This document shows, piece by piece, positions 17,960 to 45,854 of a stretch of 64,000 bases of DNA. The position numbers were made by a program, and so were the translations under genes. Within the stretch, counting starts at the first letter, position 1. The number at the start of each line of letters is the position of its first letter. Location: positions 9,610,001 through 9,674,000 of the forward strand of contig NZ_JACHMO010000001.1 of assembly GCF_014205015.1 (NCBI RefSeq), in the 5' to 3' direction. Origin of the DNA: Saccharothrix ecbatanensis. Its GTDB lineage: Bacteria > Actinomycetota > Actinomycetes > Mycobacteriales > Pseudonocardiaceae. The notes beneath the pieces were generated by a model. That model ran no database searches. It was not told the origin of the DNA and saw nothing but the letters and a program-made list of their open reading frames with translations.

Positions 17960-20647
17960 TCATCGCGGGCGCTCATCGGGTCGCCCCGACCAGAAGTCGA
18001 GCTGCACCATGATTTGGTGCGTGTCCGGATGCCACGGTCCCAGGACGCGCTCGCAGTCCGGCAGCAGCGCGTGGAACTCGGCGAGCGCCGCCGAGACCTC
18101 GCCGCGCTTGGCGGAGAACAACGCCTGGTGGTAACGCGCAGTGAGCGTTTCCGGGTGATCCGGTCCGACCGAGTGGACGAGGTCGTCGACCAACCGGGAC
18201 CACCGAGAGGCAACGGGGGGGGGGTGCTCCGTTTCGGCTTCCCAGTAGAGGATGTTGTGGCGACTACGCAACGTGTCGACGTGATCGGGGCCGATCACCC
18301 GTTCACGCAGCCCCAGCACCTCGCGGAACCCGCGCAGCGCCTCCGGGACATCGGGGACATTGGCAGCAGCCAAGGCCATGTGGTGACGAGCGCTGAGCGT
18401 CTCCGGGTGCTCCGGGCCGAGGTGGGCGGCGCATTCGTCCGCGAGTTCGGCGAACATCCGTCCGGCGGCGGGCCAATCACCGGTGTAGCCGGTCCAGAAC
18501 GCGACGTTGTTCCGCAGGCTCAACACATCGACGTGCTGCGGCCCGAGCACGGCGACGGCCTGTTCGAGCACTTCGCGGAGCACGGGCAACGCCGTCTCCG
18601 GGTCGCCGCTCTTCGCCGTCCAGGTCGCCACGCGTGCGCGGGCCCGGAGCGTGAGGACGTCCCGGGCTCCGAGCTCGTCGCCGGCCGCCGCGGCGATCAC
18701 CGACCACCTGGTCCGGTTCTCCAGCGGGATCGCGGACTCGTGCGCATCGACCTGCTCGACCGCCTCGGCCCGCTGCCCCACCGCCCACAGGTGGCGGTGC
18801 AGCGCGGCGATCGCGTAGTCCGAGGGCATCTCGGCAGCTACCGACGCCAACGCGCGGTGTCCCGCCTGTTCGTCCACAGCGGTGTCCCGGTCCTGACGCA
18901 AGAAGTCGGCAAAGGCGCGCTCGGCGATGCCGACGTGCTCGTCAGGCGTGCCGGCCCGACCACGCACGACCACGGCGTCCAGCCGGAGCAGCAGGTCGCG
19001 CAACGGCCCGACCGCACCGTGTCCGAACGAGTCGCGCACGGCGGCGAGCAGCACGGTGAACGGCAGCACCGGCCCGATGCCCGCCGCCAGCAGCACGGCC
19101 AGCACCGCCCGGAGCTGTTCGGCTTGCTCGTCGCGCCGCAGCAGTCCGGCGCGTCGCAGGTAGGCCCGGTACACGTCGTCGAACTCAGACGGTGTCGGAC
19201 CGGCGGCCGACAGGGAGGTCGTGGTGGCCAGCAGCCCATCGGTGATCAACCGCGCCGACAGCCAACTGCCCCCGCTCAGCGTGACCACGTTCGCCACGTG
19301 GTGCGTCGGCAGTCCGCGCAGTTCGGCGTAGCGGGCGAGGGCAGGCGCGTCCGGACGGTCCAGGGTCACCACGTGTGCGGACGGCAGGTGGTCGCCCGCC
19401 TTGTCTCCCGTGATGACGAGCTGGACGTGGGCCAGCTCCGGCTCGGTGGTGACGCGGGCCAGGGAGGTGAGCAGCGCGTCGCGGGTGATCGGGTCCTGGG
19501 TGTCCGTGCCGTCGATCACGAGGCGCACCCGTTCGGTGATGTGCTGCAGCGGACCGAGTACGTGTACTTCCAACGCGTCCACGTGCGGCCACCGGTCCGG
19601 CAGTTCCTCGTTCCAGTAGCGGGCACTCGCCTCGGCGAACCCGAGGCCGTGGGCGCCGAGCTGACGTGCCAGCTCGACCGCGACCTGCTCGGCGGTGGTC
19701 GCGCCGGTGAGGAACACCGAGGCGTGCACACCGACGTCCCGTCGAGGGTCGACGAGCGTGGCGACCGTGGCGGACTTCCCGGAACCGGCGGGACCGGTCA
19801 CCACGACGCAGCGCACCCCGTCGCGCACCAGTTCGTGCACGACATCGCACGCCCGCGTCGGCTCGTAGTGCTCCACCAGCCGCTCGACCTGCGCCATCGC
19901 GCTGGTGTCCGCGAGCGGGGACGAACGCCAGGCCAAGGCGGCGTTCACCGCCAACCACAGGCCGGCGTCGCTGCGCAGCACCTCGCGGCTGCCGTCGTAG
20001 GCCAGGTGCACCGCCACCTGGTACTGGCACGAGTCGTCCACATGCGTCTTCAGATCGGCGCAGTGCAGCCGCTCGCCGACCGCGGGCACGCCGGTGCGGA
20101 TCATCCTGGCCAGCGACCGCGTCAGGCAGGCGCCGAACGCCGGGCCTTCGTCGGTCGCCGTCAGCAGCTCGAACCGGCGGCGGGACCGGCGCATCGGCGC
20201 CAGCCACTCCCGACCCGCCGCTTCGGCCGCCAGCCCGGAGTGGCAGGCGTCGATGAGCATGACCAGGCCGTCCAGGTTCGAGTACCGGCGCAGCAGCTCC
20301 TTCACCCGCTGTCCCACCAGCACGGCCTGTCGGGAATCGGCCGCCGAACTGTCCTTCGCCAGCAGGTAGAAGTCGTCGTCCTCGAACCCGCCGTGCCCGA
20401 TGAACACCAGGAACAGCGTCGCCTGCTCGTCATGAGCCTGTCGGATCGACGCGACGATCGCGTCGTCCAGTTCGGCCGCGGTCGGGTCGATCACCGTCGG
20501 GCCGGTCGGCAACGCGGGCGTGCAGCCACCCAACTCGGGCCGCACCAGCACCTCGGCCAACTCGTGAGCCGCGCGCGGAAGCACAGACAGCTCCAGGTTC
20601 GCGGCGTCGCACTGCGACCCCACCACCAGCACCAAGCGCCCGTTCAC
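17960..20647 (-). CDS. Caspase-like peptidase fused to P-loop NTPase and TPR repeats
   Basis: This is an 895-residue, three-part protein. Residues 1-200 form a C14 caspase-like domain with catalytic His85 (FIGHGG) and Cys135 (LIDACHSG). An NTPase follows with Walker A GPAGSGKS (285-292) and Walker B RLVIDG (375-380). From about 690 there are Kinesin-light-chain-type TPRs (VLGPQHVDVLSLRNNVAF, HLGPEHPETLSARHHMA). Such fusions are known from bacterial conflict and programmed-death systems: the TPR/NTPase part senses and the caspase executes. The gene is divergent from the alpha/beta hydrolase gene (84-bp gap). A C10 run in the coding strand encodes Pro near residues 809-811, and slippage there would cut off the last roughly 85 residues. 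Confidence 0.88.
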   Translation of the reverse strand: MNGRLVLVVGSQCDAANLELSVLPRAAHELAEVLVRPELGGCTPALPTGPTVIDPTAAELDDAIVASIRQAHDEQATLFLVFIGHGGFEDDDFYLLAKDSSAADSRQAVLVGQRVKELLRRYSNLDGLVMLIDACHSGLAAEAAGREWLAPMRRSRRRFELLTATDEGPAFGACLTRSLARMIRTGVPAVGERLHCADLKTHVDDSCQYQVAVHLAYDGSREVLRSDAGLWLAVNAALAWRSSPLADTSAMAQVERLVEHYEPTRACDVVHELVRDGVRCVVVTGPAGSGKSATVATLVDPRRDVGVHASVFLTGATTAEQVAVELARQLGAHGLGFAEASARYWNEELPDRWPHVDALEVHVLGPLQHITERVRLVIDGTDTQDPITRDALLTSLARVTTEPELAHVQLVITGDKAGDHLPSAHVVTLDRPDAPALARYAELRGLPTHHVANVVTLSGGSWLSARLITDGLLATTTSLSAAGPTPSEFDDVYRAYLRRAGLLRRDEQAEQLRAVLAVLLAAGIGPVLPFTVLLAAVRDSFGHGAVGPLRDLLLRLDAVVVRGRAGTPDEHVGIAERAFADFLRQDRDTAVDEQAGHRALASVAAEMPSDYAIAALHRHLWAVGQRAEAVEQVDAHESAIPLENRTRWSVIAAAAGDELGARDVLTLRARARVATWTAKSGDPETALPVLREVLEQAVAVLGPQHVDVLSLRNNVAFWTGYTGDWPAAGRMFAELADECAAHLGPEHPETLSARHHMALAAANVPDVPEALRGFREVLGLRERVIGPDHVDTLRSRHNILYWEAETEHPPPVASRWSRLVDDLVHSVGPDHPETLTARYHQALFSAKRGEVSAALAEFHALLPDCERVLGPWHPDTHQIMVQLDFWSGRPDERPR
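18216..18225. repeat. G10 homopolymer inside the caspase gene
   Basis: Ten consecutive G on the plus strand (C10 on the coding strand) encode part of His-Pro-Pro-Pro. The reading frame is currently open. Tracts of eight or more G/C are classical slippage sites in phase-variable genes of other bacteria; the meaning here is inferred. Confidence 0.9.
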
Positions 20648-20731: not shown

Positions 20732-21703
20732 GTGACGGAGATCATTCTCGTGCACGGCATCGGACAAGAGCACCGTTCCGCCGACTGGCTGGAAAGCCAA
20801 TGGCTGCCCAGCCTCGCCGGAGGCGTGCGCACCGCCGGTCACCCCGAACTCGCCGACGCCCTGTGGCGGCACGCCCGACCGGGCACCCCGACCACCCGCA
20901 TGGCCTACTACGCCGACCTCTTCCGACGCGCCGACCAGCAAGGATCTGCCGCCGACCTGGTCGGGCTCAGCACACCGGACCGGCAGCGGGTGATCGACGA
21001 CCTGCTCGCCGAGCTGATCGCCAACGCGGGTGCACGCGCACAAGGCCCGAACGACCAGCGTGAAGTCGAGCAAGCCCTGCGTGTGCTGCGCGGGGATGTC
21101 CCGGACGCGCAAGGACTCGGCGCGCTGGCCCGGCCGCTGCTCAACGCGTTGCTGCGCATCGGTCCCTTCGCGCGCCTCGGTCACGCGGTCGCGGAACGCT
21201 TCCTCGTCGCTGCACTGCGCCAGGTGACCCTCTACCTCACCGACCCGGAGATCAGGCAGGCCGCGCAGCAGCGTGTGCTGTCCCTCGTCGACGTCGACAC
21301 GAAGGTGGTCATCGCCCACTCGCTGGGCACCGTGGTCGCGTTCGAGGCGCTGCACCGCGTGGACCACCCCATCCCACTGCTGATCACGCTCGGATCACCG
21401 CTCGGGATGCGCACCCTGATCCACGGGCGCCTCCACCCGCAACCGACATGCGTGCCGCCCACGGTGAAGCGCTGGGTGAACATCGCGGACCGGGACGATC
21501 TCGTCGCCTCGACGCTCGACCTGACCCCGTTGTTCGCCGGCGGGGACGGGGTGCTGGAAAACCACTCGACGGTGGACAACGGCTCCAAGCCCCACGAAGC
21601 CACCTACTACCTGGGCAAAGCGGTAGTCGGCGGACCATTGGCCGAGGTCTGCCATTCGGGTGATGGCTTAGGCGATCCGCCTGCGACATCAGCGTCGGCA
21701 TGA
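20732..21703 (+). CDS. Alpha/beta hydrolase (lipase-like)
   Basis: The 323-residue protein starts at GTG 20732 with EIILVHGIGQ, the oxyanion-side HG motif of alpha/beta hydrolases. The nucleophile elbow is AHSLG with Ser197, and a late Asp and His are available (NIADRDDLV; NHSTVDNG). It could be an esterase, lipase or peptidase; no substrate is evident. It begins 84 bp from the divergent caspase gene and is followed after 30 bp by an NLR-like gene on the same strand, so it probably belongs to the same functional unit. Hydrolases of this fold are used as effectors in several immune-type loci (known for the class, inferred here). Confidence 0.78.
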   Translation: MTEIILVHGIGQEHRSADWLESQWLPSLAGGVRTAGHPELADALWRHARPGTPTTRMAYYADLFRRADQQGSAADLVGLSTPDRQRVIDDLLAELIANAGARAQGPNDQREVEQALRVLRGDVPDAQGLGALARPLLNALLRIGPFARLGHAVAERFLVAALRQVTLYLTDPEIRQAAQQRVLSLVDVDTKVVIAHSLGTVVAFEALHRVDHPIPLLITLGSPLGMRTLIHGRLHPQPTCVPPTVKRWVNIADRDDLVASTLDLTPLFAGGDGVLENHSTVDNGSKPHEATYYLGKAVVGGPLAEVCHSGDGLGDPPATSASA

Positions 21704-21733
21704 TCCAATCCGGCGTACCTTGGGGAGGCAGGC

Positions 21734-23758
21734 GTGAGTTCCTACTTCGGCCCGCGCAGGGCGAATCCTTTTCTCAACCGCGCGGGTGTTCGGCGGGCAA
21801 TGCGTGAATGCTTGAGGGCCCGGCGCGCACAACGTCGGCCGTGCCTGATGTTCGTGCACGGTCCTGAGGGCATGGGGCGCGCCAGTCTGATCAGCGAGTT
21901 CTACCACGAGGACCGGGATGCGTTCGGCCGCGTGTACATCGAAGTCGCCGCCCGGCAGGCCGACGGCACGATGGTCCCGCCGGGGGAGATGCTCGGGCAG
22001 GTGCTTCGCGGGCTCGGTGTGCCCGACACCGAGCTGGACAGTTCGGACGCGGCGCGGTTATACGCCTTCCACCGGGTGTCCGCCGGCAAGCGATTCCTCC
22101 TGGTCATCAAGGACGCGGTCAGCGTCGAGCAGGTGACGAACCTGATTCCCGCCGCCGCCCCGGACGCGGTGTTGGTCGTGACCACCCGCACGATGGTGCG
22201 CGACCTGCTGCTGCACGACTTCGCCGACATCCCGCTCGGGAAACTGCCCCAGGCCGAGTCGAGGGAACTGCTGACCGACCGACTGAAGTCCACCGCGGGC
22301 AAGATCGCCGCGGACACGCTGCGCGAACTCGCCGACCTGTGCGACGGCTACCCGCTTCTGATCAAGATGCTGGCCGCTCAGCTGACCGGTCGCGCGCGTG
22401 TCGTGGAGCGGTTCCTGGCCGACCTGCGCCGCTCCGGAGCTGCGCTGATCGAGATGGACCGGTCCCAACAAATGGCCAGGTTCCTGGATCTGGCCTATGA
22501 GAACCTGGAACCCGGGCTCCCACTCGTCTACCGGCGTCTGGCCTTGCTGCCCGGCCAGAGTTTCGGCGCCGATGCCGCCGCCATCGCACTGGACGTCCCG
22601 CCGGTCGAAGCCGAACGCCTACTAGACCAGTTGGTGGACATGAGTCTGCTGGTGTTCGACGAAGACACCGACCGGTACTCGTTCTACCGCGTCGTCCGCG
22701 CCGATGCGCTCCGTCGTGCGCAGGAAGTCGACGGCCCACGGGAATGCGGGTCGGCACGCGCCCGGATCGTCACCTGGTACCTCGACCAGGCGGTGCCGAT
22801 GGACGCGGCCCTGTCCCGGCGGTGGCGGGTCGGCCCGGTGTTCGAGCGGTACGCCCGCGCCGGTGGCCCGGTCGTCGCGCGGGAGGAGGCGACGGCGTGG
22901 TTCGACGCCGAATGGCCCGCGCTGGTGGCGTCGGTCGGCATGGCACACGAGGACGGGCTGCACGAGATCGCCTGGCAGACCTGCGTGGCGCTGTTCAAAT
23001 ACCTCCATCTCCACGGGCACTACGACGCCTGGCTGGACACCCACCGGCTCGGCGTGTTGTCGGCTCAGACGGCGGACGCCACGGCCGGGCTGATGCAGGT
23101 GATCTCCCAGCGCGGCGCGGCGCACCTCGCATTGGGGGAGCTCCGCTCGGCGCGTGCCGACTTCACTGCGTCCCTGGAATCAGCCGTGCGGGCAGTCCAT
23201 CCGTTAGGCGAGCAGAGCGCGCACGAATGGCTCGGGAAGGTCGCCGCCGCCGAGCGGGACATCGACACGGCCCTGGACGCCTACGACAAGTCCGAGGCGG
23301 TGATCGCCCGGGTCGCCGACGCGATCCCCGCCGACCAGCAGGGCCGGATGCGGGCACTGCTGGACCTGCACCGCGCCCGGGCGTTGCTCGTCCGCTCGGA
23401 GTGGGCGCGGGCCGCGGCCCTGGTGGCGGACGGCCCGCGGTTCTTCGAGCGGATCGGCGAGGCCGAGAACCAGGCGAAGTGCCGGATGGTCCTCGGCCGC
23501 GCCGCGCACGGCTCCGGTGATCAGTCGGAGGCTGTCCGGTGCTTCTCACTCGCGGCAACCCTCTTCGAGGGTGACAATGCGCGTCGCGCGCAGGCGGATG
23601 CGCTGCGTTGGCTGGGTGACGCGTTGGCCGCCGCCGGGCGTCGGGACGAGGCGCTCCAGGCCTACCTGTCGGCCAAGGAGCTCTTCGTCAGCCTTGGCGA
23701 CGCGCGGGCCGATGCCGTGCAGGAACGGATCGACGCCCTGCTCAACGAGGACGGGTGA
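21734..23758 (+). CDS. NLR-like protein with degenerate NB-ARC and TPR repeats (NLR1)
   Basis: The 674-residue protein starts at GTG 21734. Residues 1-300 follow the NB-ARC/STAND layout (FVHGPEGMGRASL, LLVIKDAVSVEQV, DLCDGYPLLIKMLAAQL), but both nucleotide motifs are damaged. The Walker A Lys-Ser/Thr is replaced by Arg49-Ala50, and the first Walker B Asp by Lys. The C-terminal half is a TPR array (RGAAHLALGELRSARADF, RWLGDALAAAGRRDEALQAY). It may therefore bind ligand or a partner without hydrolysing ATP. It overlaps by 17 bp, tail to tail, the GT-B-like gene at 23742. The intact counterpart is NLR2 at 31021. Confidence 0.8.
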   Translation: MSSYFGPRRANPFLNRAGVRRAMRECLRARRAQRRPCLMFVHGPEGMGRASLISEFYHEDRDAFGRVYIEVAARQADGTMVPPGEMLGQVLRGLGVPDTELDSSDAARLYAFHRVSAGKRFLLVIKDAVSVEQVTNLIPAAAPDAVLVVTTRTMVRDLLLHDFADIPLGKLPQAESRELLTDRLKSTAGKIAADTLRELADLCDGYPLLIKMLAAQLTGRARVVERFLADLRRSGAALIEMDRSQQMARFLDLAYENLEPGLPLVYRRLALLPGQSFGADAAAIALDVPPVEAERLLDQLVDMSLLVFDEDTDRYSFYRVVRADALRRAQEVDGPRECGSARARIVTWYLDQAVPMDAALSRRWRVGPVFERYARAGGPVVAREEATAWFDAEWPALVASVGMAHEDGLHEIAWQTCVALFKYLHLHGHYDAWLDTHRLGVLSAQTADATAGLMQVISQRGAAHLALGELRSARADFTASLESAVRAVHPLGEQSAHEWLGKVAAAERDIDTALDAYDKSEAVIARVADAIPADQQGRMRALLDLHRARALLVRSEWARAAALVADGPRFFERIGEAENQAKCRMVLGRAAHGSGDQSEAVRCFSLAATLFEGDNARRAQADALRWLGDALAAAGRRDEALQAYLSAKELFVSLGDARADAVQERIDALLNEDG

Positions 23759-25451
23759 GGCACGCGGTGAACACCTGACGGCCCAGTCGCACGGTGAGCG
23801 TCTCGGGGAGCTCCGACCATTTCCGTCCTGCGGCGAGCCAACCGTAGATCGCAGAGCCACACACGATCACCCCGTCGGGCGACGAGGAATCGGCGAGAGC
23901 CACCGACAGACGGGTGCCATCGCGGTGCGCGATGCTGTCGCCGGCCACGACCAGCACGGTGGACGGACGGCTGTCGAAAACCGCCTCCACGGCGCTGTCG
24001 CCCTCGCCGTCGATCACCACGATCGCGGCGTTGCCACGCAGATCGCGGCGTGGGTGCCCGCCGGCCACGACCAGGTGGCGGGCGGCGTCCGGGGTCTGAT
24101 CCTCCCTGGCGAGCACATCGGCCGGCCACCGGGTGACCACGACCTCGTCCACGTCCCTCGGTTCGGCGGCCACCCACCACGCCCGCACCGGTTCCTCCTC
24201 GGGCACCAGACCGCCGACGGAGTATCGGGGGAGCAGCGTGGTGCGGGACGGCTCCGGTAGACGCATGAGGTCGTAGAACACCCTGCGCAACAGGTCCGCG
24301 CTTCGCCCCGGGACGGACGTCGTCAGGTCGCGGACCTGCGACCACCGGTCGGTTGCGGTGTCGGTGAGGGCGGTCCGGATCTGCGCCTCGAACGGTCCGC
24401 GCCGGTCCAATCTGGCTGCGGTCCGCCCCAAGGCGTCGATGGCAGATCCTGCTGCCACTTCCGGCACCGGGAACGAGGCCAACAGCGTCGGCCGCCCCAG
24501 CGCGGCGCCGTACCCCGTCACCGCGCCGTGGTCACCGATCACCACGTCCGAAGCGATCAGTGCCTGCTGCCAACCCTCCGCCGGCGGGATCAGTCGCAGA
24601 CCCGCGCGGAGGCAGTCACCGAGCCACAGCCGGATCTGGTGTGGACCGTGCGCGAACCAGACATTCGGGTGCAACACCGCCGCGACCACGTACCGGTCGA
24701 CCGGCAACTCGGCCAGTAGATGTCCCGGCAGGTCCGGCATGGTTCCCAGCAGGGAACGATCACCCCAGGTCGACGTCAGCACCACCACGGTGGTGTCGTC
24801 GCCGGCTCCGAGCACCCGCCGGTAGCCCGATCTTCTCTGCTCGCTGGCGACCAGGCGATCGAAGCACGGATCCCCCGCCACGACGGCAGCGGACAGCGCC
24901 TCCGGCACCGACTCGCCAAGCCGCGCACACTGTTCCTCGTGGGACAAAACGATCGCGCTCGGCACGACGTCTCCGGAATGGATCAACCACTCGCGGGAAA
25001 GGCCGTAAACGGAACGGCTTCCGGCTTCCGGCTTCCGGCTTCCGGCTTCCGGCTTCCGGCTTCCGGCTTCCGGCTTCCGGTGTGAATTCTTAGTATATCC
25101 CATTCCGTGGGACAGGACGATGAGCGGCGCGTCGATTTCGTGCAGGTTCCCGCTGTTGTGCACCGACAACGCGAGGTGGAACTTGGTCGACACGGCTTGA
25201 TCCCACGGAATCACCAGGGCTCCGGTCGCGGCGAGGTATCCCTCGACATCGGCGGTGACGGCCGAGGCGGCCGGAAAGGTGAAGACCAGCTGGACCCGTC
25301 GATCGGAGTCGAACACAGAGAGGATGTCGGCGAACCGGTTGACCGCCGTGATCGTGTGCACCACCACGAGGACAAAACGCTCGGCCGCAACGGTCGTCCA
25401 GCGCGGCCCCTCCGGGCCCAGTGGCACGCCGAGCCAACGGGTGGTGGACAA
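23742..25451 (-). CDS. GT-B-like protein of unknown function, paralog 1, with internal repeat
   Basis: The 569-residue protein is clearly paralogous to the one at 33139 (shared STWG..SLLGT, ELPVD.Y, HPNVW, ASD.VIGDHG). The SDVVIGDHG segment with following small residues recalls the C-terminal nucleotide-binding half of CDP-glycerol glycerophosphotransferase and other GT-B enzymes; this family link is tentative. Directly after the conserved HG.G..K motif, about residues 124-146 are three copies of a Gly-Ser-Arg-Lys-Pro-Glu-Ala heptapeptide encoded by a 7-bp DNA repeat. The paralog lacks this insert. The start is TTG 25451. It is convergent with NLR1 (17-bp overlap) and divergent from the gene at 25534. 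Confidence 0.75.
   Translation of the reverse strand: MSTTRWLGVPLGPEGPRWTTVAAERFVLVVVHTITAVNRFADILSVFDSDRRVQLVFTFPAASAVTADVEGYLAATGALVIPWDQAVSTKFHLALSVHNSGNLHEIDAPLIVLSHGMGYTKNSHRKPEAGSRKPEAGSRKPEAGSRSVYGLSREWLIHSGDVVPSAIVLSHEEQCARLGESVPEALSAAVVAGDPCFDRLVASEQRRSGYRRVLGAGDDTTVVVLTSTWGDRSLLGTMPDLPGHLLAELPVDRYVVAAVLHPNVWFAHGPHQIRLWLGDCLRAGLRLIPPAEGWQQALIASDVVIGDHGAVTGYGAALGRPTLLASFPVPEVAAGSAIDALGRTAARLDRRGPFEAQIRTALTDTATDRWSQVRDLTTSVPGRSADLLRRVFYDLMRLPEPSRTTLLPRYSVGGLVPEEEPVRAWWVAAEPRDVDEVVVTRWPADVLAREDQTPDAARHLVVAGGHPRRDLRGNAAIVVIDGEGDSAVEAVFDSRPSTVLVVAGDSIAHRDGTRLSVALADSSSPDGVIVCGSAIYGWLAAGRKWSELPETLTVRLGRQVFTACLTRPR
25015..25080. repeat. Heptanucleotide repeat, 9.4 copies, within coding sequence
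   Basis: Nine perfect GGCTTCC units occupy 25016-25078, with partial units at each side. Three units make seven codons, so the present number is in frame, but gain or loss of one unit (7 bp) would shift the frame about 120 codons into the protein. This is a textbook layout for slipped-strand on/off switching. Confidence 0.95.
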
Positions 25452-25533
25452 CTACGCTCCTGGGACGCTCGATGACCGGATCACCGTACCTCCACCGACG
25501 GCGGTCACCACCCTCCTCGGTACGGTCGCCGGT

Positions 25534-25989
25534 GTGACCCCGATTTGGCTGACGATCGTCGTGGCCGTGCTCAGCGTCAGCGGTGCCCTCGCGGCGCAAT
25601 GGCTCGCCAGCTCCCGCGCATACCGCCTGGCGTTGATCGAGCGGGAAACCCGCCGCGCCGAACGCGACCGGCAGAGCCGCGAGGACGCCTACACGAAGTT
25701 CCTGGCCGCCGCACGGGCCATAAAGCCTGGAAAGCAGCCAACGGCGGACCCCTCGGCGACCGAATCCGCGTCCACAGCCCTGCGCGAAGCAGCTGCCCAC
25801 ATCGAGCTGTACTCACCGGACCTCGCCGAAGGACCGCTGGCCGTCGCGCTCGCCGCCGCCGAACGCCTGCTCACGCTTCCGCTGGCCATGTCCCCATCCG
25901 CACCCGCGGTCCGGGAGGCCGAGCGCGAGTTCGACGAAGCGCTGGCCAAACTACGCAGGGCCATGCACTCCGACTTGGACGACTCGTGA
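25534..25989 (+). CDS. Small membrane-anchored coiled-coil protein
   Basis: Starting at GTG 25534 gives 151 residues: one N-terminal membrane helix (PIWLTIVVAVLSVSGALAAQ) followed by a charged helical stretch (LIERETRRAERDRQSREDAY) and another amphipathic helix. Bacteria encode many such anchored helical proteins near defence genes, but no family can be named. It is divergent from GT-B paralog 1 (82-bp gap). Confidence 0.65.
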   Translation: MTPIWLTIVVAVLSVSGALAAQWLASSRAYRLALIERETRRAERDRQSREDAYTKFLAAARAIKPGKQPTADPSATESASTALREAAAHIELYSPDLAEGPLAVALAAAERLLTLPLAMSPSAPAVREAEREFDEALAKLRRAMHSDLDDS

Positions 25990-26614
25990 ACCGGCGGCTC
26001 GGCTGAGGATCAGATCAACGGTCGAACTCGCCGCAGCGGGCGGCGCGATCCATTGCACGGGTGCGCTTCTCGTCACTCGGCCGATACCCGTTGCCGAGCG
26101 GGTCGACCGTCGTTCGCGTCGAGGTCGGCAAGCTGCTCCTCCATCGCGCTCACGCGTTGACGAGCTTTGTCGACCCTCTTCTGCAAGCGATCCTCTTCGA
26201 CCCGAGCCTTGGTCAACGACTCTTGCAGGCTGCGCCTTTCGGCTGTGAGTCGTGCATCGCCCGGTGGAAGTTTGACCGAGGAGACGATCCCGCGTACCTG
26301 CTGACACTCGGGACAATTCGTCACGCTGCGGTACCAGTACGTGTTCGTGTGGTGCTGAGTCGCCTCGACCAGGTGGTCGCACGTCAGGGTCAGTTGCCAG
26401 GTGTCGAGCTCCGAAGGGTCCGGCTTATTGCTGTTGAAGATCTCTCGGATTGTCGCGACCTGCTCTTCGCTCAGCGGTGGTGGTGGGCAGCAGTACCCAC
26501 AATGCGTTGCCCTCGATCCTTGAAGGGTCCAGCGGTGGCTTCGGCAATCCGCGTGGCGTCGGTTGTACTCCGCTTCCGCCAAGTCGTACTGCTCCCGTTG
26601 TCCCGTGTCCATCT

Positions 26615-28108
26615 CAATGCCGCTTAGTTAGTGGCCTTGGTGTGCGGGTTGAGGCGAGTGGATTGGTTGGCAGTACTGTTGATCAGTGCCGTCTGCTCGC
26701 CGTTTCACCGATGGGATCAGCATCGGTGTGCTGGCCCGTGTGTTCGACCGGGATCTGGTGGACGAGGTGCTCGCGGAAACGGGGCGTCGGGAGAGGCGGT
26801 CGCGTCTGCTGCCCGCGCGGGTGGTCGTCTACTACGTGCTGGCGCTGTGCCTGTTCTTCGATGACGGTTACGAAGAGGTGATGCGCAAGCTGGTCGACGG
26901 TCTGCGGTTTCTGGGCACGTGGCGGCAGGGGTGGACGGTGCCCACGACGGGGGCGATCTCCCAGGCGCGGGGGCGGTTGGGCGAGGCGCCGCTGCGGGTG
27001 CTGTTCGACCGGGTGGCGGTGCCGATGGCCCATGCCGGAACGCGGGGGGCGTGGTTTCACGGGTGGCGGGTGATGGCGGTCGACGGTGTCGTGCTGGACT
27101 TGCCCGACACGGCGGCCAACGTAGCCGAGTTCGGCAAGAAGCCGCACAAGGGCGGGCAGAGCCCGTTTCCGCAGGTGCGGATCATGGGGCTGGGCGAGTG
27201 CGGCACGCATGCGATCGTGGCGGCGGAGTTGGATTCCTGGCGGGTGCAGGAACGCGGCTTGTGCGAGCGGTTGGTGGCGGCGTTCGAGCCGGACATGCTG
27301 GTGCTGGCCGATCGCGGTGTGTTCTCCTACGACTTGTGGCAGCGGGCGCGCCGGAGCGGGGCGCAATTGGTGTGGCGGGTCCGTGACGATGTGGACCTGC
27401 CGGTGTTGGGGTGGCTTCCCGACGGGTCCTACCGCAGTGAGCTGCTGCCCTCGAAGGTCAAGGCGGACCTGAAGCGGGGCAAGCGGTCGCGGGCGCCGGA
27501 GGGGTCGCGGTTGCCGGTGCGGGTGGTGGAGTACTCGGTGACCGACCGCGGCGGGCAGCCCGAGATGATCCGCCTGGTGGTGTCGATCATGGATCACGAG
27601 GTGGCGCCGGCGGTGGAGTTGGCGGTGCTGTATCGGCAGCGGTGGGAGTTCGAGCTGACCCTGGACGAGATCGAGACCCATCAGATGCCGCATGGCAGGG
27701 TGCTGCGGTCGAAGTCCCCGGAGTTGGTCCGGCAGGAGATCTGGGCGTTGCTGCTGACCCACTACGCGGTGCGGGCGTTGATGTTGGAGGCCGCCGAGGG
27801 CCTCGGTCCGGACGACGGGCTCGACGTCGACGGGTTGTCCTTCGTCCGAAGTCTCAACGCTGTGCGCCGCCAGGTCACCAACCAGGCGGGTTTTTCCCCC
27901 TCACCGCCTGAAGAACGCGATCATCGAGACGCTTGAGGAGATCCGACACCGACGCGCCCGGGGCCGCCGCCACCGCTCCTACCCACGCGTGGTCAAACGC
28001 AGCAACGTCGGCAGCAAGCTGATCAAACGCGCGCACCACACAGGCACCCGCTACGACCGGCCACCTGGCATCCACCTCTTCGGCAAGATCACTAACTAAG
28101 CGGCATTG
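26615..28108 (+). mobile_element. Complete IS4-family insertion sequence (1494 bp)
   Basis: Perfect 19-bp terminal inverted repeats bound it: CAATGCCGCTTAGTTAGTG at 26615-26633 and its complement at 28090-28108. It is flanked by a 10-bp direct target duplication GTGTCCATCT (26605-26614 and 28109-28118), a size usual for IS4-type elements. It carries one transposase gene reading left to right. The target duplication contains the first codon of the apparently free-standing downstream gene fragment, which is therefore an artefact of the insertion. Confidence 0.95.
26686..28099 (+). pseudogene. IS4-family transposase with a frameshift in a T5C5 run
   Basis: From GTG 26686 the frame encodes a DDE transposase: first Asp in VMAVDGVVLDLPD, second in VLADRGVFSYDLW, and the YRQRWEFELTLDE Y-R-E signature, here with Glu where the family has Lys at the end. 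It stops at 27936. The expected ending (LKNAIIETLEEIRHRRARG to FGKITN, TAA at 28099) is intact but in another frame, entered at TTTTTCCCCC (27891-27900). One C fewer would restore a single frame of about 470 codons. Either the element is inactive, or ribosomes shift on the proline codons, or the run was miscounted in sequencing. Confidence 0.85.
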
Positions 28109-28515
28109 GTGTCCATCTGGAGCAACGGTGGCCAGCGGCCGAGGCCGTCTGCTACGGGTAGGCCGCATCCGCGACAAGCTGCTCCCGCATTGATCTCGGC
28201 GCGAGACAGGTACATTCCGTTCGCCTCCCACTCACGCCGCCTTGCCTCCCGTCGGATCTCGTCTTGCTCGGCCTCCAACGCGGCCTTGCGACGGCGGCTC
28301 AGCGCGCGCCGCGCCTTCTCTTCCTCGGTCAGCTTCGCCATTGCACCCTCTCCGGTCTGCAGCGTCCGGGAACCGTGCTCTCGGTATCGGCCCACGCCCC
28401 GGCGAGCTGAACCTTTCTCGGCAACCAGTACCCGTAGAACGGACTCACCCGTCGGCATGTGGCTCTTGAGAGCGCCTGTCGTAGCGGCTGGACTTCGACA
28501 TCGAGTCGTGACTCA

Positions 28516-29361
28516 ATGTCGGCCATGCAGATCGGCGAGCACCGGGTGTTCCGCGACCGGCCGAAGGCTTTGGGCGAGCCGGTTCACCGCGTAGAAGTGG
28601 TCAGGCTCGACGGACCACGGCGTCAGGGCGACGTTCACGTGCGCTTCCTGGCGGGCGAGGAAGCCGGGCTCCAGGAGTGGGTGGCGCGCGGACAACTGGT
28701 CGCTCCTTGGGAGGACGTGGAGTCGTTCCTGCATGACGACCGGCGTCGCCTCGCGGTGGTCGAGGAGTCCGTCGACGTGCGAGGTACGCCCGAGTTCGAC
28801 GCGGCGCGCTTCGTGTTCGAATTCGTGCGTCCCAAGAACGTGCTCCGTCTGCACACGACGAAGGCGGACGCCGGCGTGGCGGAGATCTTCGATCTCACAA
28901 AGATCGCGACGTTGGTCGGTATCGGACCCGATGAGCTGACCGCCCAGCCGCGCTGCTTCGTCGATCGCAACGGTGTCCTTGTCTGTCCGTGGTCGGCGAC
29001 CCGAACCCTGGCACGCCGGGTAGCCGACAAGCTCGGCGAGGAAGTCCTGGGCAAGGCTCTCGACCAGGAGCGGCGTCTGCGGGACCACTACGAAGGCGAG
29101 CCGTCGTGGCGACGTGACGACAAGGAGTTGCGGCAGTTCGAACGTGTGGCGAGCGTGCTGCGCGAGTGGTGCACCGGCGAGGCCGTCGAGCGTTTCGACG
29201 AACTGCGGGCCCTGCGGGCGGAGGTGGTCCGACTGGGTGGACTTGTTCAACGAGCCGTGGCCGAACTGCGCCAGCGGAAGGCGCACGCTATCGCTGCCAC
29301 CATCGAGCGCGACCTCGGAGTCCTGGATGCCACGCCTGCTGCCGGGACCAGTCGGCGTTGA
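28516..29361 (+). CDS. Conserved-looking protein of unknown function
   Basis: The 281-residue frame (ATG 28516; ATG 28525 also possible) is an alpha/beta protein with a segment PRCFVDRNGVLVCPWSATRT and a C-terminal helical region (ALRAEVVRLGGLVQRAVAEL). I recognise no family, membrane helix or catalytic motif. It is divergent from the interrupted zinc-ribbon gene, and its end overlaps the convergent gene at 29288 by 74 bp. This tail-to-tail arrangement recurs in this region. Confidence 0.6.
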   Translation: MSAMQIGEHRVFRDRPKALGEPVHRVEVVRLDGPRRQGDVHVRFLAGEEAGLQEWVARGQLVAPWEDVESFLHDDRRRLAVVEESVDVRGTPEFDAARFVFEFVRPKNVLRLHTTKADAGVAEIFDLTKIATLVGIGPDELTAQPRCFVDRNGVLVCPWSATRTLARRVADKLGEEVLGKALDQERRLRDHYEGEPSWRRDDKELRQFERVASVLREWCTGEAVERFDELRALRAEVVRLGGLVQRAVAELRQRKAHAIAATIERDLGVLDATPAAGTSRR

Positions 29362-30796
29362 CCTGCGGCGTCGGTGCGGTGTGCGGCGCGCGGTACTCCT
29401 TCTCTGGGCGGTGCGGGCTCCATTCGCCCAGGTACGGCCGGAGTTCGTCCGGTGTGGGAGGACGGTCGAACCCGTTCGCGGTGAGTGCCTTGGGGTCGTG
29501 CACCGGATCGATGCTGTCAGCCATGGACCGTCCCCAGTCGATCCACGACGTCAGGGCGTCACGACTATCGGGTGAGGCCTCGGTGAGTTCCGAGAGCGCG
29601 TCGCAGAAGGCGCGGACCTGGTCGGCGGTCAGCCAGGAGTCCAAGGCACGACTGAAGATTTCCGCGCGGCGCTCCTCTGTCGCGCGGACGCGGGCCTGAG
29701 CCATCGCCTGTTCCCATTGCGCGAGCTTTTCCGCTGCCTCACCTCTCAGCTGGGCTTCGAACTCCTCCAGTGCCCGCCTGTGTTCGCGGTCGCTCTCCTC
29801 CTCGGCAGCCACACGGTGCTCGATCTCGTCGATGACCTGGTCGAGCATGTTCTCAAGACGGGCCCGACCTTTATCGCCCCACGTGCTACGGCGTGCGTGG
29901 CGAGATTCCACGAGCTCCAGTCGGAGGCGACCGGACGGAACCGACTCGTGTACCAGGGGCTGGCGTTGCCACGAGTAGCGCTTACTGCCGACAGTCCCTT
30001 GATCGGATGTGCGCGCGACCTCCTCGTACTCCTCTTTGAGCGTCACAGTGAACTTTCGTTCGCCCGCTTGGATGAAGAGTCCCTTGTTCTTGCGCTTCTT
30101 GGACATCGCCAGCGTGTAGCCCCGCCGCCCCGCACTCCGTGACAATTCCTCGACAAGTCCGAGGGCGCGAGGCATCGACGACTCGGAGACCTCCATCACG
30201 TCTGGATTGGCTCGCAGCATCCTGGTCAGTTCAGGCGTCGCCGCCACCTGATCGCGAACGCCGAGCCTGATCCGGTTCCACTCGGTCTCGTCAGGGTTCG
30301 CGGCGTCCACGAGTTGGATGATCAGATCGCCGCCGTTGCGACCGGTGTGCCGGAGAAGGAATCCCTCCGGCACGAGCCCGCGCTGCGTCGCCGCGTGGAT
30401 GGCACGACGGTAGGCCGCGCGCGACGTCTCGTCCGGATTCTCGATCCGAAGAGTCCCGGCGTCCGTCAGTAGCTGAACGAGCCTCGTGGCATCGGGGAGG
30501 TCGGATGTGCCAGACGTGACGGTCGTGTTCTCCACCTGAGGATCGGGATGACGCCCGTGTCGCAGGTAGAAGTCTCCCGCATCGGTGATCCGTGCTGTCC
30601 AAGCCCCGTTCTCCCGAGGGGTCGTGACCAGCCCTCGTGCGCGAAGCGCGTAGACGGTCGCGGCAAAGTCGGGCGTGTGGGAGCCGACTTGCCCGTCACC
30701 CGCTGAGACTTGGCGGAGAACGGACACCTGACGGTCATTCAGTTTCGCGCGCCGCTGCACACGGCCAGCACACACCGTCGCGGGCGTAACAGGCAA
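29288..30796 (-). CDS. Unknown actinobacterial protein with winged-helix-like N-terminus
   Basis: The 502-residue frame begins with a helix-turn-helix-like segment (LNDRQVSVLRQVSAGD, then VYALRARGLVTTPRENGAW, TDAGDFYLRHGRHP) that looks like a winged helix. The middle is mixed alpha/beta (SKKRKNKGLFIQAGERKFTV) and a long charged helix follows (about 310-385). Similar proteins occur in many Streptomyces-type genomes as uncharacterised genes. The start may be TTG 30796 or a GTG 18-33 bp further in. It is separated by 224 bp from the divergent NLR2 gene. Confidence 0.6.
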   Translation of the reverse strand: MPVTPATVCAGRVQRRAKLNDRQVSVLRQVSAGDGQVGSHTPDFAATVYALRARGLVTTPRENGAWTARITDAGDFYLRHGRHPDPQVENTTVTSGTSDLPDATRLVQLLTDAGTLRIENPDETSRAAYRRAIHAATQRGLVPEGFLLRHTGRNGGDLIIQLVDAANPDETEWNRIRLGVRDQVAATPELTRMLRANPDVMEVSESSMPRALGLVEELSRSAGRRGYTLAMSKKRKNKGLFIQAGERKFTVTLKEEYEEVARTSDQGTVGSKRYSWQRQPLVHESVPSGRLRLELVESRHARRSTWGDKGRARLENMLDQVIDEIEHRVAAEEESDREHRRALEEFEAQLRGEAAEKLAQWEQAMAQARVRATEERRAEIFSRALDSWLTADQVRAFCDALSELTEASPDSRDALTSWIDWGRSMADSIDPVHDPKALTANGFDRPPTPDELRPYLGEWSPHRPEKEYRAPHTAPTPQVNADWSRQQAWHPGLRGRARWWQR

Positions 30797-31020
30797 GCCG
30801 ACTCACCGCGGGCTTCTCGCGTTGTCGTCCGACCGATGTCGCCCATGCGGCGGTGATAGCGAGGCCGGGTTCGGCCAGTACTCGACGGTGCTTGCCGAGA
30901 GGGCGCCGCAGGATGGCGGATGCCGTGTAGGGCCAACGGGTGAAGGTTCGGCTGTGGTGCGTGGATCGTCGTTGCTGAGACGTCGCATGGCGTAACGTTG
31001 TTGTTTGATCACGACGGCGG

Positions 31021-33138
31021 ATGTGCGGGGCGTGGATGGAGCAGCCGGATTCGAGTCGGCCTCGGAAGGTGACCGATGTCGGCAACTCGGTGGTGGACGT
31101 CAGTGGGCCCGTGGTTCAGGCGGGCTCCGTCGGCGGCAATGTCGTGATCAACCACCATCCGGCGTCGCCCGTCGAGGTTCCGGACCAGCTGCCGCCTCCG
31201 ACCGCGGGATTCGTGAACCGGGTTCGTGAGTTCGAGGCGTTGGACGGTGTGCTCGCCGCAGCGGGTGCGCGTCCGTCCGGGTGTGCGGTGGTCACCGGCT
31301 TGGCCGGCGTGGGGAAGAGCGCGTTGGTCCACACGTGGGCGGCGGGTCGGAGCGAGCGGTTCCCCGACGGCCGGATGTACATCGACTTCACGGCGCTGCG
31401 GACGCCAGGCGGAACGGCCGTGGGCGACGCCCTGGCCGAGTGCTTGCGGGCGTTGGGGGTCCACGAGGAGCACATCCCGCCGACGCTGGCGGGACGGACG
31501 GCGCTGTTCCGGACGAAGATGGCGACCGGCCGGCGCCTGGTGGTGCTCGACGACGTCACGGAACCTGCTCACGTGCAGCCGTTCCTGACCCGATCGACCG
31601 GATCCGTGGTCGTGGCGACGAGCAACGAGCGGCTGGTCGAGTTGGCGTTGGACGGCGCGACCGCCGTGCCGCTGGCCCCGCTCGGACTCGAGGACGCCGT
31701 CCGCGTGTTGGCCGCGTTGTGCCCGGACGGCCGGCTCGACGCGGATCAGACGAGTGCGGAAGCACTGGTACGGCTGTGCGGAGGATTACCGGTGGCCTTG
31801 AGGGTCGCCGCGGGCAGGCTGCTCGGCAGGCCGCACCTCACGCCTGCCGCCTTGGTCGACCAGCTCTCCGACGAGGCAGGACGGCTCGAAGGGCTGGCTT
31901 TGGGAGGGGAGCGTGTCGTGTCCGCCGTGTTCGACAACTCCTACCGCAGCCTCCACCCGGCCGCCGCCGCCCTCTACCGGCGACTCGGCCTGCTGCCCCT
32001 GCTGGAGATCCCCCGCCACGTGATCGACGTTGTCGCCGTCCGCGCCGACGACGCGGTGGAAGCGCTCGTGCGGGCGCATCTGCTCGACGAGATCGGGCCA
32101 GACCGGTACGCCTTCCACGGACTCGTCGCACTGCACGCACGTGGTCGTGCGGCGGAAGAGGAGACGGCGGGGGACGCGGACCGGCTGCTGGCGACGGTTC
32201 TCGGTCACTACCTGGAGCGCCTGTGCCATGCGGATCGCACGGTGATGGAGGATCGGCTGCGGATCGCCGCCGTGGCACCGTCGACGCCCACGCCGTTCGG
32301 TGATAAACGCCAGGCGCTGGAGTGGCTGGTGACCGAACGCGCGAACCTGCTGGGGCTGGTGCGGTCGGCCGAGCTGCGCGGGTACGACGAGGTGGCGTGG
32401 CAGATGGCCGAGGCGCTCACCGCCCTGTACCTGAACCGCCGCTACGTCGCGGATTGGATCGAATCGGCGGACATCGGCGCGCGCGCCGCACGGCGGGTCG
32501 GTGATCCGGCCGCCGAGGCACGGCTGCGCAGCGTGGTCTCGCGCGCCTACACCGATCTCGGGCGGCTGGACCGGGCGGAGGAGGAGTTGGCCCTCGCGCG
32601 GGAACTCGCCGCCCGGAGCGACAACCCCGTGCTGGTGGCGTCGGTGTGGGAGTTCACCGGCCGGTACCTGGACCACGTGGACCCGCACGAGGCGATCGCG
32701 GCGTACCGGAACGCTTTGGCGGTGAACTCCGACATCGGTGAACGTCGGGGCGCCGCGTTGGCCACCTACTTCATGGGCTGCTCGCTGCACGCGACCGGTG
32801 AGGACGACGAGGCGTTGGCGGCCCTGTCCCATGCCCACGCCGAGTTCGAGGCGGTGGACGACCCCAGGATGGCGGCCCGTGCGCTGATCGGCTTGGGCGC
32901 GTTGCGTCGGGACGTCGGGGACTTCGCCGCTGCCCGGGAGGACCTGGAAACCTCCGTTGCGCTGTTCCAGCAGTCGGGCGCCGAGCACTACGAGTCCCAG
33001 GCGCTGGTCGTGCTCGCCGACGTGCTCGAAGCGCAAGGGCAAGACAACCTGGCGCGGGAGCACTTGGCGCGTGCGTTGACGATCCGGGAAGCTGCCGGCG
33101 CCGACGTGTCGGACCTGCGGGCCCGCCTGGGCGAGTGA
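31021..33138 (+). CDS. NLR-like NB-ARC/TPR protein with RHIM-like N-terminal motif (NLR2)
   Basis: The 705-residue protein has three parts. Residues 22-43 contain GPVVQAGSVGGNV within a Gly/Val/Asn pattern like the RHIM-related amyloid motifs described for actinobacterial NLR-like proteins (BASS3-type). The NB-ARC domain is complete: Walker A GLAGVGKS (93-100), Walker B LVVLDDV and GLPVALRVAAGRL. From about 440 there are TPR-type repeats (RSVVSRAYTDLGRLDRAEEEL, ARALIGLGALRRDVGDF). It should be an ATP-regulated sensor or switch that could seed an effector through the amyloid motif; no effector with the same motif was found in the window. ATG 31036 is an alternative start. Its TGA abuts the stop of the GT-B gene at 33139. 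Confidence 0.85.
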   Translation: MCGAWMEQPDSSRPRKVTDVGNSVVDVSGPVVQAGSVGGNVVINHHPASPVEVPDQLPPPTAGFVNRVREFEALDGVLAAAGARPSGCAVVTGLAGVGKSALVHTWAAGRSERFPDGRMYIDFTALRTPGGTAVGDALAECLRALGVHEEHIPPTLAGRTALFRTKMATGRRLVVLDDVTEPAHVQPFLTRSTGSVVVATSNERLVELALDGATAVPLAPLGLEDAVRVLAALCPDGRLDADQTSAEALVRLCGGLPVALRVAAGRLLGRPHLTPAALVDQLSDEAGRLEGLALGGERVVSAVFDNSYRSLHPAAAALYRRLGLLPLLEIPRHVIDVVAVRADDAVEALVRAHLLDEIGPDRYAFHGLVALHARGRAAEEETAGDADRLLATVLGHYLERLCHADRTVMEDRLRIAAVAPSTPTPFGDKRQALEWLVTERANLLGLVRSAELRGYDEVAWQMAEALTALYLNRRYVADWIESADIGARAARRVGDPAAEARLRSVVSRAYTDLGRLDRAEEELALARELAARSDNPVLVASVWEFTGRYLDHVDPHEAIAAYRNALAVNSDIGERRGAALATYFMGCSLHATGEDDEALAALSHAHAEFEAVDDPRMAARALIGLGALRRDVGDFAAAREDLETSVALFQQSGAEHYESQALVVLADVLEAQGQDNLAREHLARALTIREAAGADVSDLRARLGE

Positions 33139-34779
33139 TCAGACCGCTGACACGGTGACGCGACCCGTGCGTCCGCCCGCGCGCAGCTCGAACGAACCCG
33201 GGAGTTCGCGGTCGTGGACCAAGAGCGTGTAGAGCGCCGAGGTCAGCAGCCCGGTGTCCCGGAGCTGTGGGGGAGCGGTCAACGCGACGCCCCGACCGTC
33301 CCGCAGACGGACCTGGCACCCGGTCGACGTGGCGTGGCCGGCCATCCGGCACCCCGGGAACGCGTCGAGGGTCTCTCCGAGCCATCTCGCCGCCTCGTCC
33401 GACCGTCCTGCCGCACGGACGATCGTCGCCGCGTCGGCGAACCGCCGGACGTCCCGTTCCCTGTCGTCCACGCTGACGTGCCGCACCTCGACCGGCGTGA
33501 CGTGCGGCACCGTGACAAACGGATACCGCCGCAAGGTGACCGCGCCACCGCTGACGGAACCCACGACGTGGAGGCTGTGCAGGTCCGGCAACGCCTGTGC
33601 GGGGTCCTCCGCGATCGCCGACTCCTGCGCCCAGGCCGGCTCGGGCAGGCCCAACGCGTCGTAGCACCAGGTGCGCAGCAATCGCAGCGCCTGTCCCGGC
33701 GCCGCGAACACCGTGTCGGCGGGCACAAGGGCGGCATGCCGGTCACCGATCGCCTGCTCGACCTGTGCACGCAGGTCCCGGTGGCGGTCCAGGCGGATCG
33801 CCTTACGGCCGAGGTCGGCCATCACCGTGTGCGGGACTACCTCGTCGCCGAACGCCGCGAGCCGCAGCGGGACACCCGTGGTCGCGGCATACATGCTCAA
33901 CGAGCCGTGGTCGCCGATCACGAGGTCGGACGCGACCATCGTGGCGTGCCAGCCCATGGCCGGGTCGACAAGCAGCAGACCGCCGCGCAACGCGTTGTCG
34001 ATCACGCGCCGCAGCTCCCAGCCGCCCTCCCAGGTCCAGACGTTGGGATGGGCGACGAGCGCTACCCGGTACTCGTCCACCGGCAACTCGCGCACGAGCG
34101 CCGTGAGCAGACCGGGATCGGTACCCAACAACGACTCGCCACCCCACGTGGAGGAGACCAGGACCAAGCGCCGGCGGTCGTCCACCCCGAGCGCCGAACG
34201 GTAACGAGCCCGCTGCGGAACACTCGTGGTGAGCAGGTCGAAGCTCGTGTCGCCACCCAGAACCGTCCGCCCCACCGTCGCCGGATCCAACTCGGCCAAC
34301 TGGCGTTGCTGGGACGGATGGGTGACCAACATCCGGACCTGGTCACCGCGCAGCACGGCGGGATCCACGAGGCCCGACACCCTGGTGCCCGTGGTGTCCA
34401 CATCGGGTACGTACTTGTGGAACCCGACACCGTGCGGGATCACCAGCATCGGCACCGGTTTCCGCGTCCGCAGGTCGAGCTTCTCAGTGGCCGCGATCAC
34501 CAGTCTGCAGTCGAGGTCGGCGACCCGATCCCACGGCACGATCGGAGCGGGCAGACCGCGGATCAACGCCGAGACACCATCCGAGTTGCGCGACCGCTCG
34601 TCCACCGCGAAAGCCACCCGCACCCGGTCATCGCCGGCGAACACCGGAAGCGCTTCGAGCAGCCGTATCGCCGAGGTGAGCGTCCTGACTACCGCGAGCA
34701 CCGTCGGCTTCGACCGGAACGTGCCCCATCGCGCGGATTCCGACGGCTCCATGGCTGGATCAAAGCCCATGGACCCCAC
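33139..34779 (-). CDS. GT-B-like protein of unknown function, paralog 2
   Basis: The 546-residue protein is a paralog of the product of 23742-25451. Both share an N-terminal Rossmann-like strand (TVLAVVRTLTSAIRLLEALP), PHGVGFHK, VSSTWGGESLLGTDPG, HPNVW and ASDLVIGDHGSLSMYAATTG, the last like the nucleotide-binding half of GT-B transferases. Here the position of the heptapeptide insert is occupied by unique sequence (YVPDVDTTG). Possible starts are GTG 34779, ATG 34770 and ATG 34752. The first lies only 18 bp from a 15.5-copy 8-bp repeat, so the repeat occupies the leader or promoter region. An in-frame TGA between the repeat and GTG 34779 rules out read-through from the repeat. It is convergent with NLR2 with no gap. 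Confidence 0.75.
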   Translation of the reverse strand: MGSMGFDPAMEPSESARWGTFRSKPTVLAVVRTLTSAIRLLEALPVFAGDDRVRVAFAVDERSRNSDGVSALIRGLPAPIVPWDRVADLDCRLVIAATEKLDLRTRKPVPMLVIPHGVGFHKYVPDVDTTGTRVSGLVDPAVLRGDQVRMLVTHPSQQRQLAELDPATVGRTVLGGDTSFDLLTTSVPQRARYRSALGVDDRRRLVLVSSTWGGESLLGTDPGLLTALVRELPVDEYRVALVAHPNVWTWEGGWELRRVIDNALRGGLLLVDPAMGWHATMVASDLVIGDHGSLSMYAATTGVPLRLAAFGDEVVPHTVMADLGRKAIRLDRHRDLRAQVEQAIGDRHAALVPADTVFAAPGQALRLLRTWCYDALGLPEPAWAQESAIAEDPAQALPDLHSLHVVGSVSGGAVTLRRYPFVTVPHVTPVEVRHVSVDDRERDVRRFADAATIVRAAGRSDEAARWLGETLDAFPGCRMAGHATSTGCQVRLRDGRGVALTAPPQLRDTGLLTSALYTLLVHDRELPGSFELRAGGRTGRVTVSAV

Positions 34780-34797
34780 CAGCCCGACGCGTCAGCC

Positions 34798-34921
34798 GGC
34801 TTCCCGGCTTCCCGGCTTCCCGGCTTCCCGGCTTCCCGGCTTCCCGGCTTCCCGGCTTCCCGGCTTCCCGGCTTCCCGGCTTCCCGGCTTCCCGGCTTCC
34901 CGGCTTCCCGGCTTCCCGGCT
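34798..34921. repeat. Octanucleotide repeat, 15.5 copies, upstream of GT-B paralog 2
   Basis: Fifteen perfect GGCTTCCC units run from 34798 to 34917, followed by GGCT. The unit is the 7-mer of paralog 1 plus one C. Changes in copy number would alter the distance between any upstream promoter and the start codon and the structure of the leader, rather than the reading frame. Confidence 0.95.
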
Positions 34922-35183
34922 GAGGGTTAATCCTAGGGCGCGCTTGGCCTCAGCACGTCCACCGACGCCGCGTGGCGCACGTGTGTCACCAGATCGTGGA
35001 CGGCACCTTGGGATGAGTTCGACAGCGCGGTGATCACACATGGCGCTGACGCCTCGAGAGCCCCGGTGATCCGCGCACGCCGTAGATCATAGCTGGACCG
35101 GCGCCCGCCACCTGCCAACATTTGACCAGCCCGATCGCCGTGCCTAGCTGGTTCGCGGCGGTGCCTGCGTCGAGTTCCCCTCA
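34922..35183. other. Stretch without a supported gene
   Basis: No convincing coding sequence was seen. It presumably holds the promoter of the minus-strand GT-B paralog 2, on the far side of the 8-bp repeat. Confidence 0.5.
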
Positions 35184-45494: not shown

Positions 45495-45514
45495 GGCTGG
45501 GGCTCCTCGGGGCT

Positions 45515-45850: not shown

Positions 45851-45854
45851 AGGC

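Follow-up and report, generated by a model that had tools for sequence, protein, structure and literature searches.

Why should enzyme genes that lie tail-to-tail with NLR-like genes carry long tandem arrays of 7- or 8-bp units? The question is raised by a 64,000-nucleotide stretch of Saccharothrix ecbatanensis DNA (the window; positions 9,610,001-9,674,000 of a genome of 9.69 Mb in one contig) that holds two such pairs, each made up of an NLR-like gene and a gene for a protein of GT-B (glycosyltransferase, GT) type. An earlier note, made from the sequence alone, had singled out these pairs as a possibly switchable module. From comparison with other actinobacteria, we consider it reasonably probable that they represent an NLR conflict module in which a contingency (phase-variable) switch acts on the partner enzyme.

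Two convergent gene pairs with repeat arrays

The first pair consists of NLR-like protein 1 (P0001, NLR1; 21734..23758, + strand) and GT-B-like protein 1 (P0002, GT1, 569 aa; 23742..25451, - strand), whose genes share a 17-bp overlap at their tails. In the second, NLR-like protein 2 (P0003, NLR2; 31021..33138, +) is adjoined tail-to-tail, with zero gap, by GT-B-like protein 2 (P0004, GT2, 546 aa; 33139..34779, -). These coordinates agree with the arrangement described in the earlier note, and its assignment of NB-ARC and TPR domains was confirmed by Pfam: both domains are above cut-off in P0001 (NB-ARC 1.2e-7, TPR_2 7.6e-10) and in P0003 (NB-ARC 2.8e-6, TPR_12 2e-14), as expected of NLR or STAND proteins. 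NLR2 features a canonical Walker A sequence, GLAGVGKSA, and that of NLR1, read from the translation, is non-canonical (GPEGMGRAS).

The long repeats that had been reported inside one GT gene and before the other are perfect tandem arrays (100% match). GT1 belongs to the site-A type: its array (25015..25080, -) comprises 9.4 copies of the 7-mer GGAAGCC on the coding strand, is in frame and encodes RKPEAGS repeats following HGMGYTK. GT2 is of site-B type, with 15.8 copies of the 8-mer GGGAAGCC directly upstream of the start codon (34796..34921, -); a stop in the GT2 frame after this array leaves it untranslated in that frame. In both arrays the unit is read on the strand that codes for the GT. 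No 7- or 8-mer array of at least 22 bp arose in 50 Markov copies of the window, and triple GGAAGCC with 0-3 bases between units is confined, across the 9.69 Mb genome, to these two arrays. The genome holds two further GT paralogues, each with a convergent NLR; the third carries 4.3 copies of GGAAATC at the protein position matching the GT1 array, and the fourth is a short form without an array.

P0002 and P0004 share 38% identity across residues 14-382, and neither has an accepted Pfam match, PF04464 (CDP-glycerol glycerophosphotransferase) included; within the family, PF04464 is matched at E 0.01 or better by 9 of 34 members (best 1.3e-9). Residues 2-379 of P0004 are predicted to adopt a TagF-like GT-B fold, as would be expected of PF04464, with TagF as the best match, in agreement with the earlier description of the proteins as GT-B-like. 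An extra domain occupies residues from about 400 to 546. Several database entries of the family are titled 'Translation initiation factor 2', a naming for which the predicted fold gives no support.

Recurrence of the pairing and placement of the arrays

Two sets of loci were compared, with one genome per species. Set 1 comprised 141 loci, namely the window, 60 fetched loci (2 from the S. ecbatanensis genome and 58 from related genomes, three small fragments, G005 twice and G035 C537, being left out) and 80 named loci, which are the best 80 of 519 confirmed places in the GTDB species collection; its 150 GT places gave 148 distinct ones once duplicates were removed. Set 2 came from 393 genomes sampled evenly across the class and chosen without regard to arrays. 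The GT family was found in 43 of these genomes, in two of them by weak partial matches, and 60 loci were fetched, with up to three candidates scored per genome (that of S. ecbatanensis has four). Short or partial places (G376, G268 at 1.58 Mb, G171, G309 C614, G243 C53, G352 and G091) and the fragments L278, L287 and L303 were left out of set 2. A gene was counted as long form when its match exceeded 1350 nt in set 1 or 1400 nt in set 2.

A tblastn search with P0001 and P0003 within 900 nt showed that a convergent NLR adjoins 108 of the 114 long and 30 of the 34 short GT genes of set 1, and in 25 of the 34 short-form loci an NLR is also found on the opposite side. By tblastn in set 2, convergent NLRs lie next to 31 of 41 long genes and 15 of 18 short-length matches, while six of the ten remaining long genes show NLR- or TPR-like open reading frames (ORFs) in translations: L244 (further away), L248, L265 and L276 (by Pfam, TPR only, with L265 just under the cut-off), L277 and L297 (by eye). 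When the ORFs of the 141 loci were clustered, GT and NLR were the sole widely recurring families, the next being present at 12 loci. Non-canonical Walker A sequences occur in 19 of 35 NLR partners of site-A genes, 10 of 73 of site-B genes, 5 of 33 of array-less genes and 2 of 48 of short genes, hinting at inactive NTPases among the NLR partners of site-A genes, possibly with P0001 among them. Eight loci (L114, L124, L139, L152, L157, L160, L171 and L174) have one GT-NLR pair followed in tandem by another; both GTs carry arrays, with differing units, in seven of them, and one GT only in L174.

This pattern bears on the view that the GT alters a surface glycopolymer used as a phage receptor, in classical receptor switching, the NLR being a further defence gene with only loose linkage to it. 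Phase variation often affects surface glycosylation, and the TagF-like fold and the PF04464 matches would suit such an enzyme, but a neighbour that is almost always convergent and alone in recurring widely is hard to reconcile with loose linkage, and we regard receptor switching as unlikely.

Arrays are frequent in long GT genes. In set 1, 68 of the 114 have one at site B and 14 at site A, with 32 array-less, and none of the 34 short genes has one. In set 2, arrays were found in 29 of 41 long genes (22 at site A and 7 at site B, where L245, with its array at the gene start, was counted; 12 without) and in none of the 15 other short-form genes, a count that excludes L278, L283 and L301, array-bearing 'short' hits that are contig-end pieces or late matches. 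In set 1, the 94 kb that lie between -400 and +450 nt of long gene starts hold 85 arrays with a period of 7 or 8, compared with 5 across the other 1,894 kb of its loci; for set 2 the figures are 32 (37 kb) and 6 (643 kb). Perfect 7- and 8-mers are thus enriched about 342-fold in set 1 and 92-fold in set 2 at two fixed places, in the reading frame and in the promoter region, as expected of a phase-variable locus. Periods near the gene start are 7 and 8, with three exceptions over both sets, whereas elsewhere they are scattered. The longest arrays reach 67 and 76 copies (L171 and L277), and 9 of the 80 named contigs end within an array. What the earlier note had anticipated, a convergent NB-ARC/TPR gene in most genomes together with repeats in or before the GT gene, was therefore seen in both samples, and the opposite outcome, GT homologues mostly without NLR neighbours and repeats, did not occur. 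Additional arrays were noted beyond site A in L076 and about 700 bp upstream of the GT in L173 (6207-6283; GCCGCGT x11).

At site B, the array follows a promoter-like element. Among 64 loci, those without 70 nt of clean upstream sequence being left out, a -10-like element is present 6-20 nt upstream of the array in 62, against 16.4 in shuffled sequence, and GGTTG is found upstream of 31 arrays, 28 of them at 34-42 nt. In the window, the hexamer TAGGAT (34930..34935, -) stands 8 nt ahead of the GT2 array. Because it starts just after this element, the site-B array is probably, judging by consensus matching, the first sequence to be transcribed. In 10 of the 68 site-B genes of set 1 there is no start codon behind the array in the GT frame, so the protein could be made only if the array were translated too; in L160 and L174 of Amycolatopsis, for example, a TTG immediately ahead of the array reads into the GT.

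The coding strand is free of T in 112 of 121 arrays (81/86 and 31/35), which excludes start and stop codons in every frame, and such a composition suits a leader as well as a reading frame. A tree of 111 GT genes, built from the part behind the array, requires 3 changes between sites A and B and 29 for array absence; the place of the array therefore appears old, while arrays themselves come and go. The no-T rule and the limitation to periods 7 and 8 may be signs of a mechanism dedicated to generating such arrays. Alternatively, these places could be neutral or selfish hot spots at which slippage-prone 7- and 8-mers are tolerated, with no role in switching. Similar arrays do occur elsewhere at low density (2 in a 400 kb sample of the S. 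ecbatanensis genome, both of period 8) and some site-B arrays lie outside the coding frame. Against this stand the strong enrichment, the lack of arrays in the sampled short paralogues, the clade-stable site, the T-free coding strand and the excess of in-frame alleles described below, and together they make neutrality very unlikely. One further array in the S. ecbatanensis genome (C1 near 8,375,405; L211:15405-15488), 10.5 copies of the 8-mer GTTGCCGG by an alpha/beta hydrolase gene, has a T-free complement.

Evidence for switching and the proposed part of the NLR

Site A is found 326-376 nt inside the matched stretch of the GT gene, directly behind the HGxG motif, and corresponds in the P0004 model to a hairpin between strands 122-125 and 132-134. 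Across both sets, 23 of the 36 site-A genes read through the array in one frame and 13 do not, and in all 36 an open frame of 1200 nt or more follows the array. Natural in-frame and out-of-frame alleles with an intact remainder are what a phase-variable locus should show; in-frame alleles also exceed the one-third expectation (p 1.7e-4). In one related pair (L249 and L274, 87% identical) the arrays differ by 14 bp, and one gene is in frame and the other out. The ratio of nonsynonymous to synonymous substitution (dN/dS) is 0.13, 0.21 and 0.27 in three close pairs containing an out-of-frame member. Among pairs at 84-91% DNA identity in which neither array is cut by a contig end, copy number differs in 7 of 7, and in some the unit differs as well. 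The earlier description of the module as switchable is supported to the extent that out-of-frame alleles with an intact downstream part exist and that the arrays of two sister copies are 14 bp apart in length.

The hairpin position behind an invariant motif and the low-complexity repeats encoded by in-frame arrays would also be compatible with an array that acts chiefly as protein, forming a variable flexible loop by the active site at site A, or an N-terminal tail, that tunes activity. Periods of 7 and 8 are not multiples of 3, however, and with the out-of-frame alleles and the many leader arrays that are untranslated in the GT frame, they render a mainly protein-level function improbable.

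Under the contingency-switch reading, slippage would add units to the arrays or remove them. At site A and at coding site-B arrays, this would shift the reading frame and turn the enzyme ON or OFF, and at site-B arrays in an untranslated leader the array length would tune expression, as for hmw1A (see below). A mycelium would then mix cells that have the enzyme with cells that lack it. The NLR would sense an invader or a disturbed cell state, and NLRs with an N-terminal amyloid motif would probably signal via a tail-motif executioner encoded elsewhere, for which there is one candidate in the genome. We infer both the substrate and the role of the enzyme, which would act on a glycan, lipid or protein, modifying it in a second branch of the response; its switchability would hedge protection against self-damage.

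Several observations weigh against this reading. Switching itself we infer from comparisons between species, and in one close pair (L253 and L275, 95.5%) the frame shift stems from an indel at the array edge, not from whole units. Array-less long genes are common in both sets (32/114 and 12/41). A stop separates the array from the GT core in the GT frame in 28 of the 68 site-B genes of set 1; frame switching cannot apply to these, and an effect on their expression is a guess. For six long genes of set 1, no convergent NLR was found within 900 nt (although L153 has one 925 nt away and L100 is near a contig end), and L250, L256, L270 and L271 of set 2 have none in the longest facing ORF. The GT tree was built quickly, and support is weak for 80 of its 200 inner branches. 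A search of PADLOC-DB 2.0.0 of 2023 at E 0.01 gave no match for either GT or either NLR, and matched only the neighbouring caspase. Finally, our own regular expression detected the amyloid motif in a minority of NLR ORFs (47/180) and in none of 136 clustered GT ORFs.

In the window this motif, a BASS3/RHIM-like amyloid-signalling sequence (GPVVQAGSVGGN; 31105..31140, +), is found near the N-terminus of NLR2; P0001 does not match the expression, and there is no second copy in the window by the same expression. Small ORFs with tail motifs lie next to four loci, and a small protein with a C-terminal BASS3-like tail is encoded elsewhere in the S. ecbatanensis genome (L304:1501-2067, -; C1 near 8,749,711), making it a possible candidate executioner for P0003. 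The lack of the motif makes the GT unlike an amyloid-recruited executioner, and the main rival therefore becomes a role as bait or self mark. Here the enzyme would be a phase-variable self mark or bait, the TPR part of the NLR would read the enzyme or its product, an amyloid-tailed executioner would kill, and switching would diversify kin or self recognition. The fungal NLRs HET-E and HET-D, with the glycolipid-transfer protein HET-C, offer an analogy. Such a role suits the distribution of the motif between NLRs and GTs, the tail-motif proteins and the convergent layout, in which the GT has its own promoter-like element. It is weakened by the fact that contact or ligand would be putative only, and by the out-of-frame alleles, whose existence means that loss of the enzyme is tolerated. 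We judge it somewhat unlikely, if less so than the other rivals. All of these rival readings are compatible with one another and with a contingency switch.

Neighbouring genes, known systems and meaning

The earlier note had also placed a caspase gene and a hydrolase gene in the same block. Both are neighbours here, but neither belongs to the two families, GT and NLR, that recur widely, so nothing marks either as part of the module. The caspase-NTPase-TPR gene (17960-20647, -; Pfam Peptidase_C14 9.3e-5, PADLOC caspase 5.9e-7) is a separate conflict-type gene adjoining the module, and the alpha/beta hydrolase (20732-21703) is weakly supported (Pfam E 0.0018, below cut-off). An IS4-type transposase is encoded between the two pairs (26686-27936, +; Nterm_IS4 4.2e-33). 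Four more short arrays, of 9- and 11-mers (TCCGCAGAA, CTCCGCAGAAT, TTCTGCGGAGG and GATTGTGCG), lie at 45514-45851 and have an iteron-like look.

The component parts of the module are of known kinds and, within the literature searched, the novelty lies in their combination, which is not described in the searchable titles and abstracts, most subscription papers being outside reach. Repeat-driven phase variation has been known mainly in surface genes of pathogens with small genomes, and 7-bp promoter repeats are found in hmw2A as in hmw1A of Haemophilus influenzae. The comparisons that follow hold for the accessible parts of the published accounts. In hmw1A, more copies of the 7-bp promoter-region repeat mean less expression (PMC8262952). 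The likeness lies in 7-bp tandem repeats in a promoter region; hmw1A is an adhesin gene in a pathogen, whereas here an NLR-paired enzyme is concerned across actinobacteria, with arrays just behind the -10 element or inside the gene and with variable, mostly T-free units. Glycosyltransferases are coupled to STAND/NLR-type NTPases in bacterial conflict systems with GT4 domains, which also include inactive partner NTPases (PMC8195603), and these systems make an effector role of the enzyme plausible. Their GT4 domains are often fused to the NTPase or encoded in a two-NTPase operon, while here a TagF-like enzyme is encoded by a stand-alone, convergent gene with repeat arrays. The terms 'tandem repeat' and 'phase variation' are absent from the main texts of PMC8195603 and PMC7159879.

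Bacterial amyloid signalosomes of the BASS/Bell-NLR type (PMC7889193) share the N-terminal RHIM-related motif on NLRs, matched here by 47 of 180 NLR ORFs, and the occurrence in filamentous bacteria, but the convergent partner here is a motif-less GT and not a Bell protein. In the NACHT and ternary conflict sensors diversified by diversity-generating retroelements (PMC10907252), hypermutation likewise targets a component of an NLR-type system in multicellular bacteria; there a putative sensor is altered by error-prone reverse transcription, and here an enzyme gene would be altered by change in tandem-repeat length. From TagF itself, a wall teichoic acid polymerase (PDB 3l7m and others), the enzyme differs in its extra C-terminal domain and in an identity of 10%, and no teichoic-acid neighbour recurs in the 141 loci.

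Bacterial NLRs are a growing field, and in this two-gene module they meet what is probably phase variation. The arrays may explain why draft assemblies break by the GT gene and why some GT copies resemble frameshifted pseudogenes. If switching is real, the array would also be an easy marker for finding such modules. We put forward only tentatively that multicellular actinobacteria might subject an innate-immune enzyme to a heritable lottery played cell by cell, in which a mosaic of armed and unarmed cells would be set against a constant NLR, with T-free arrays long kept at the transcription start or in the active-site hairpin while their letters turn over. If the module switches as predicted, it would offer a testable way to ask how a multicellular bacterium keeps down what cell-death immunity costs it.

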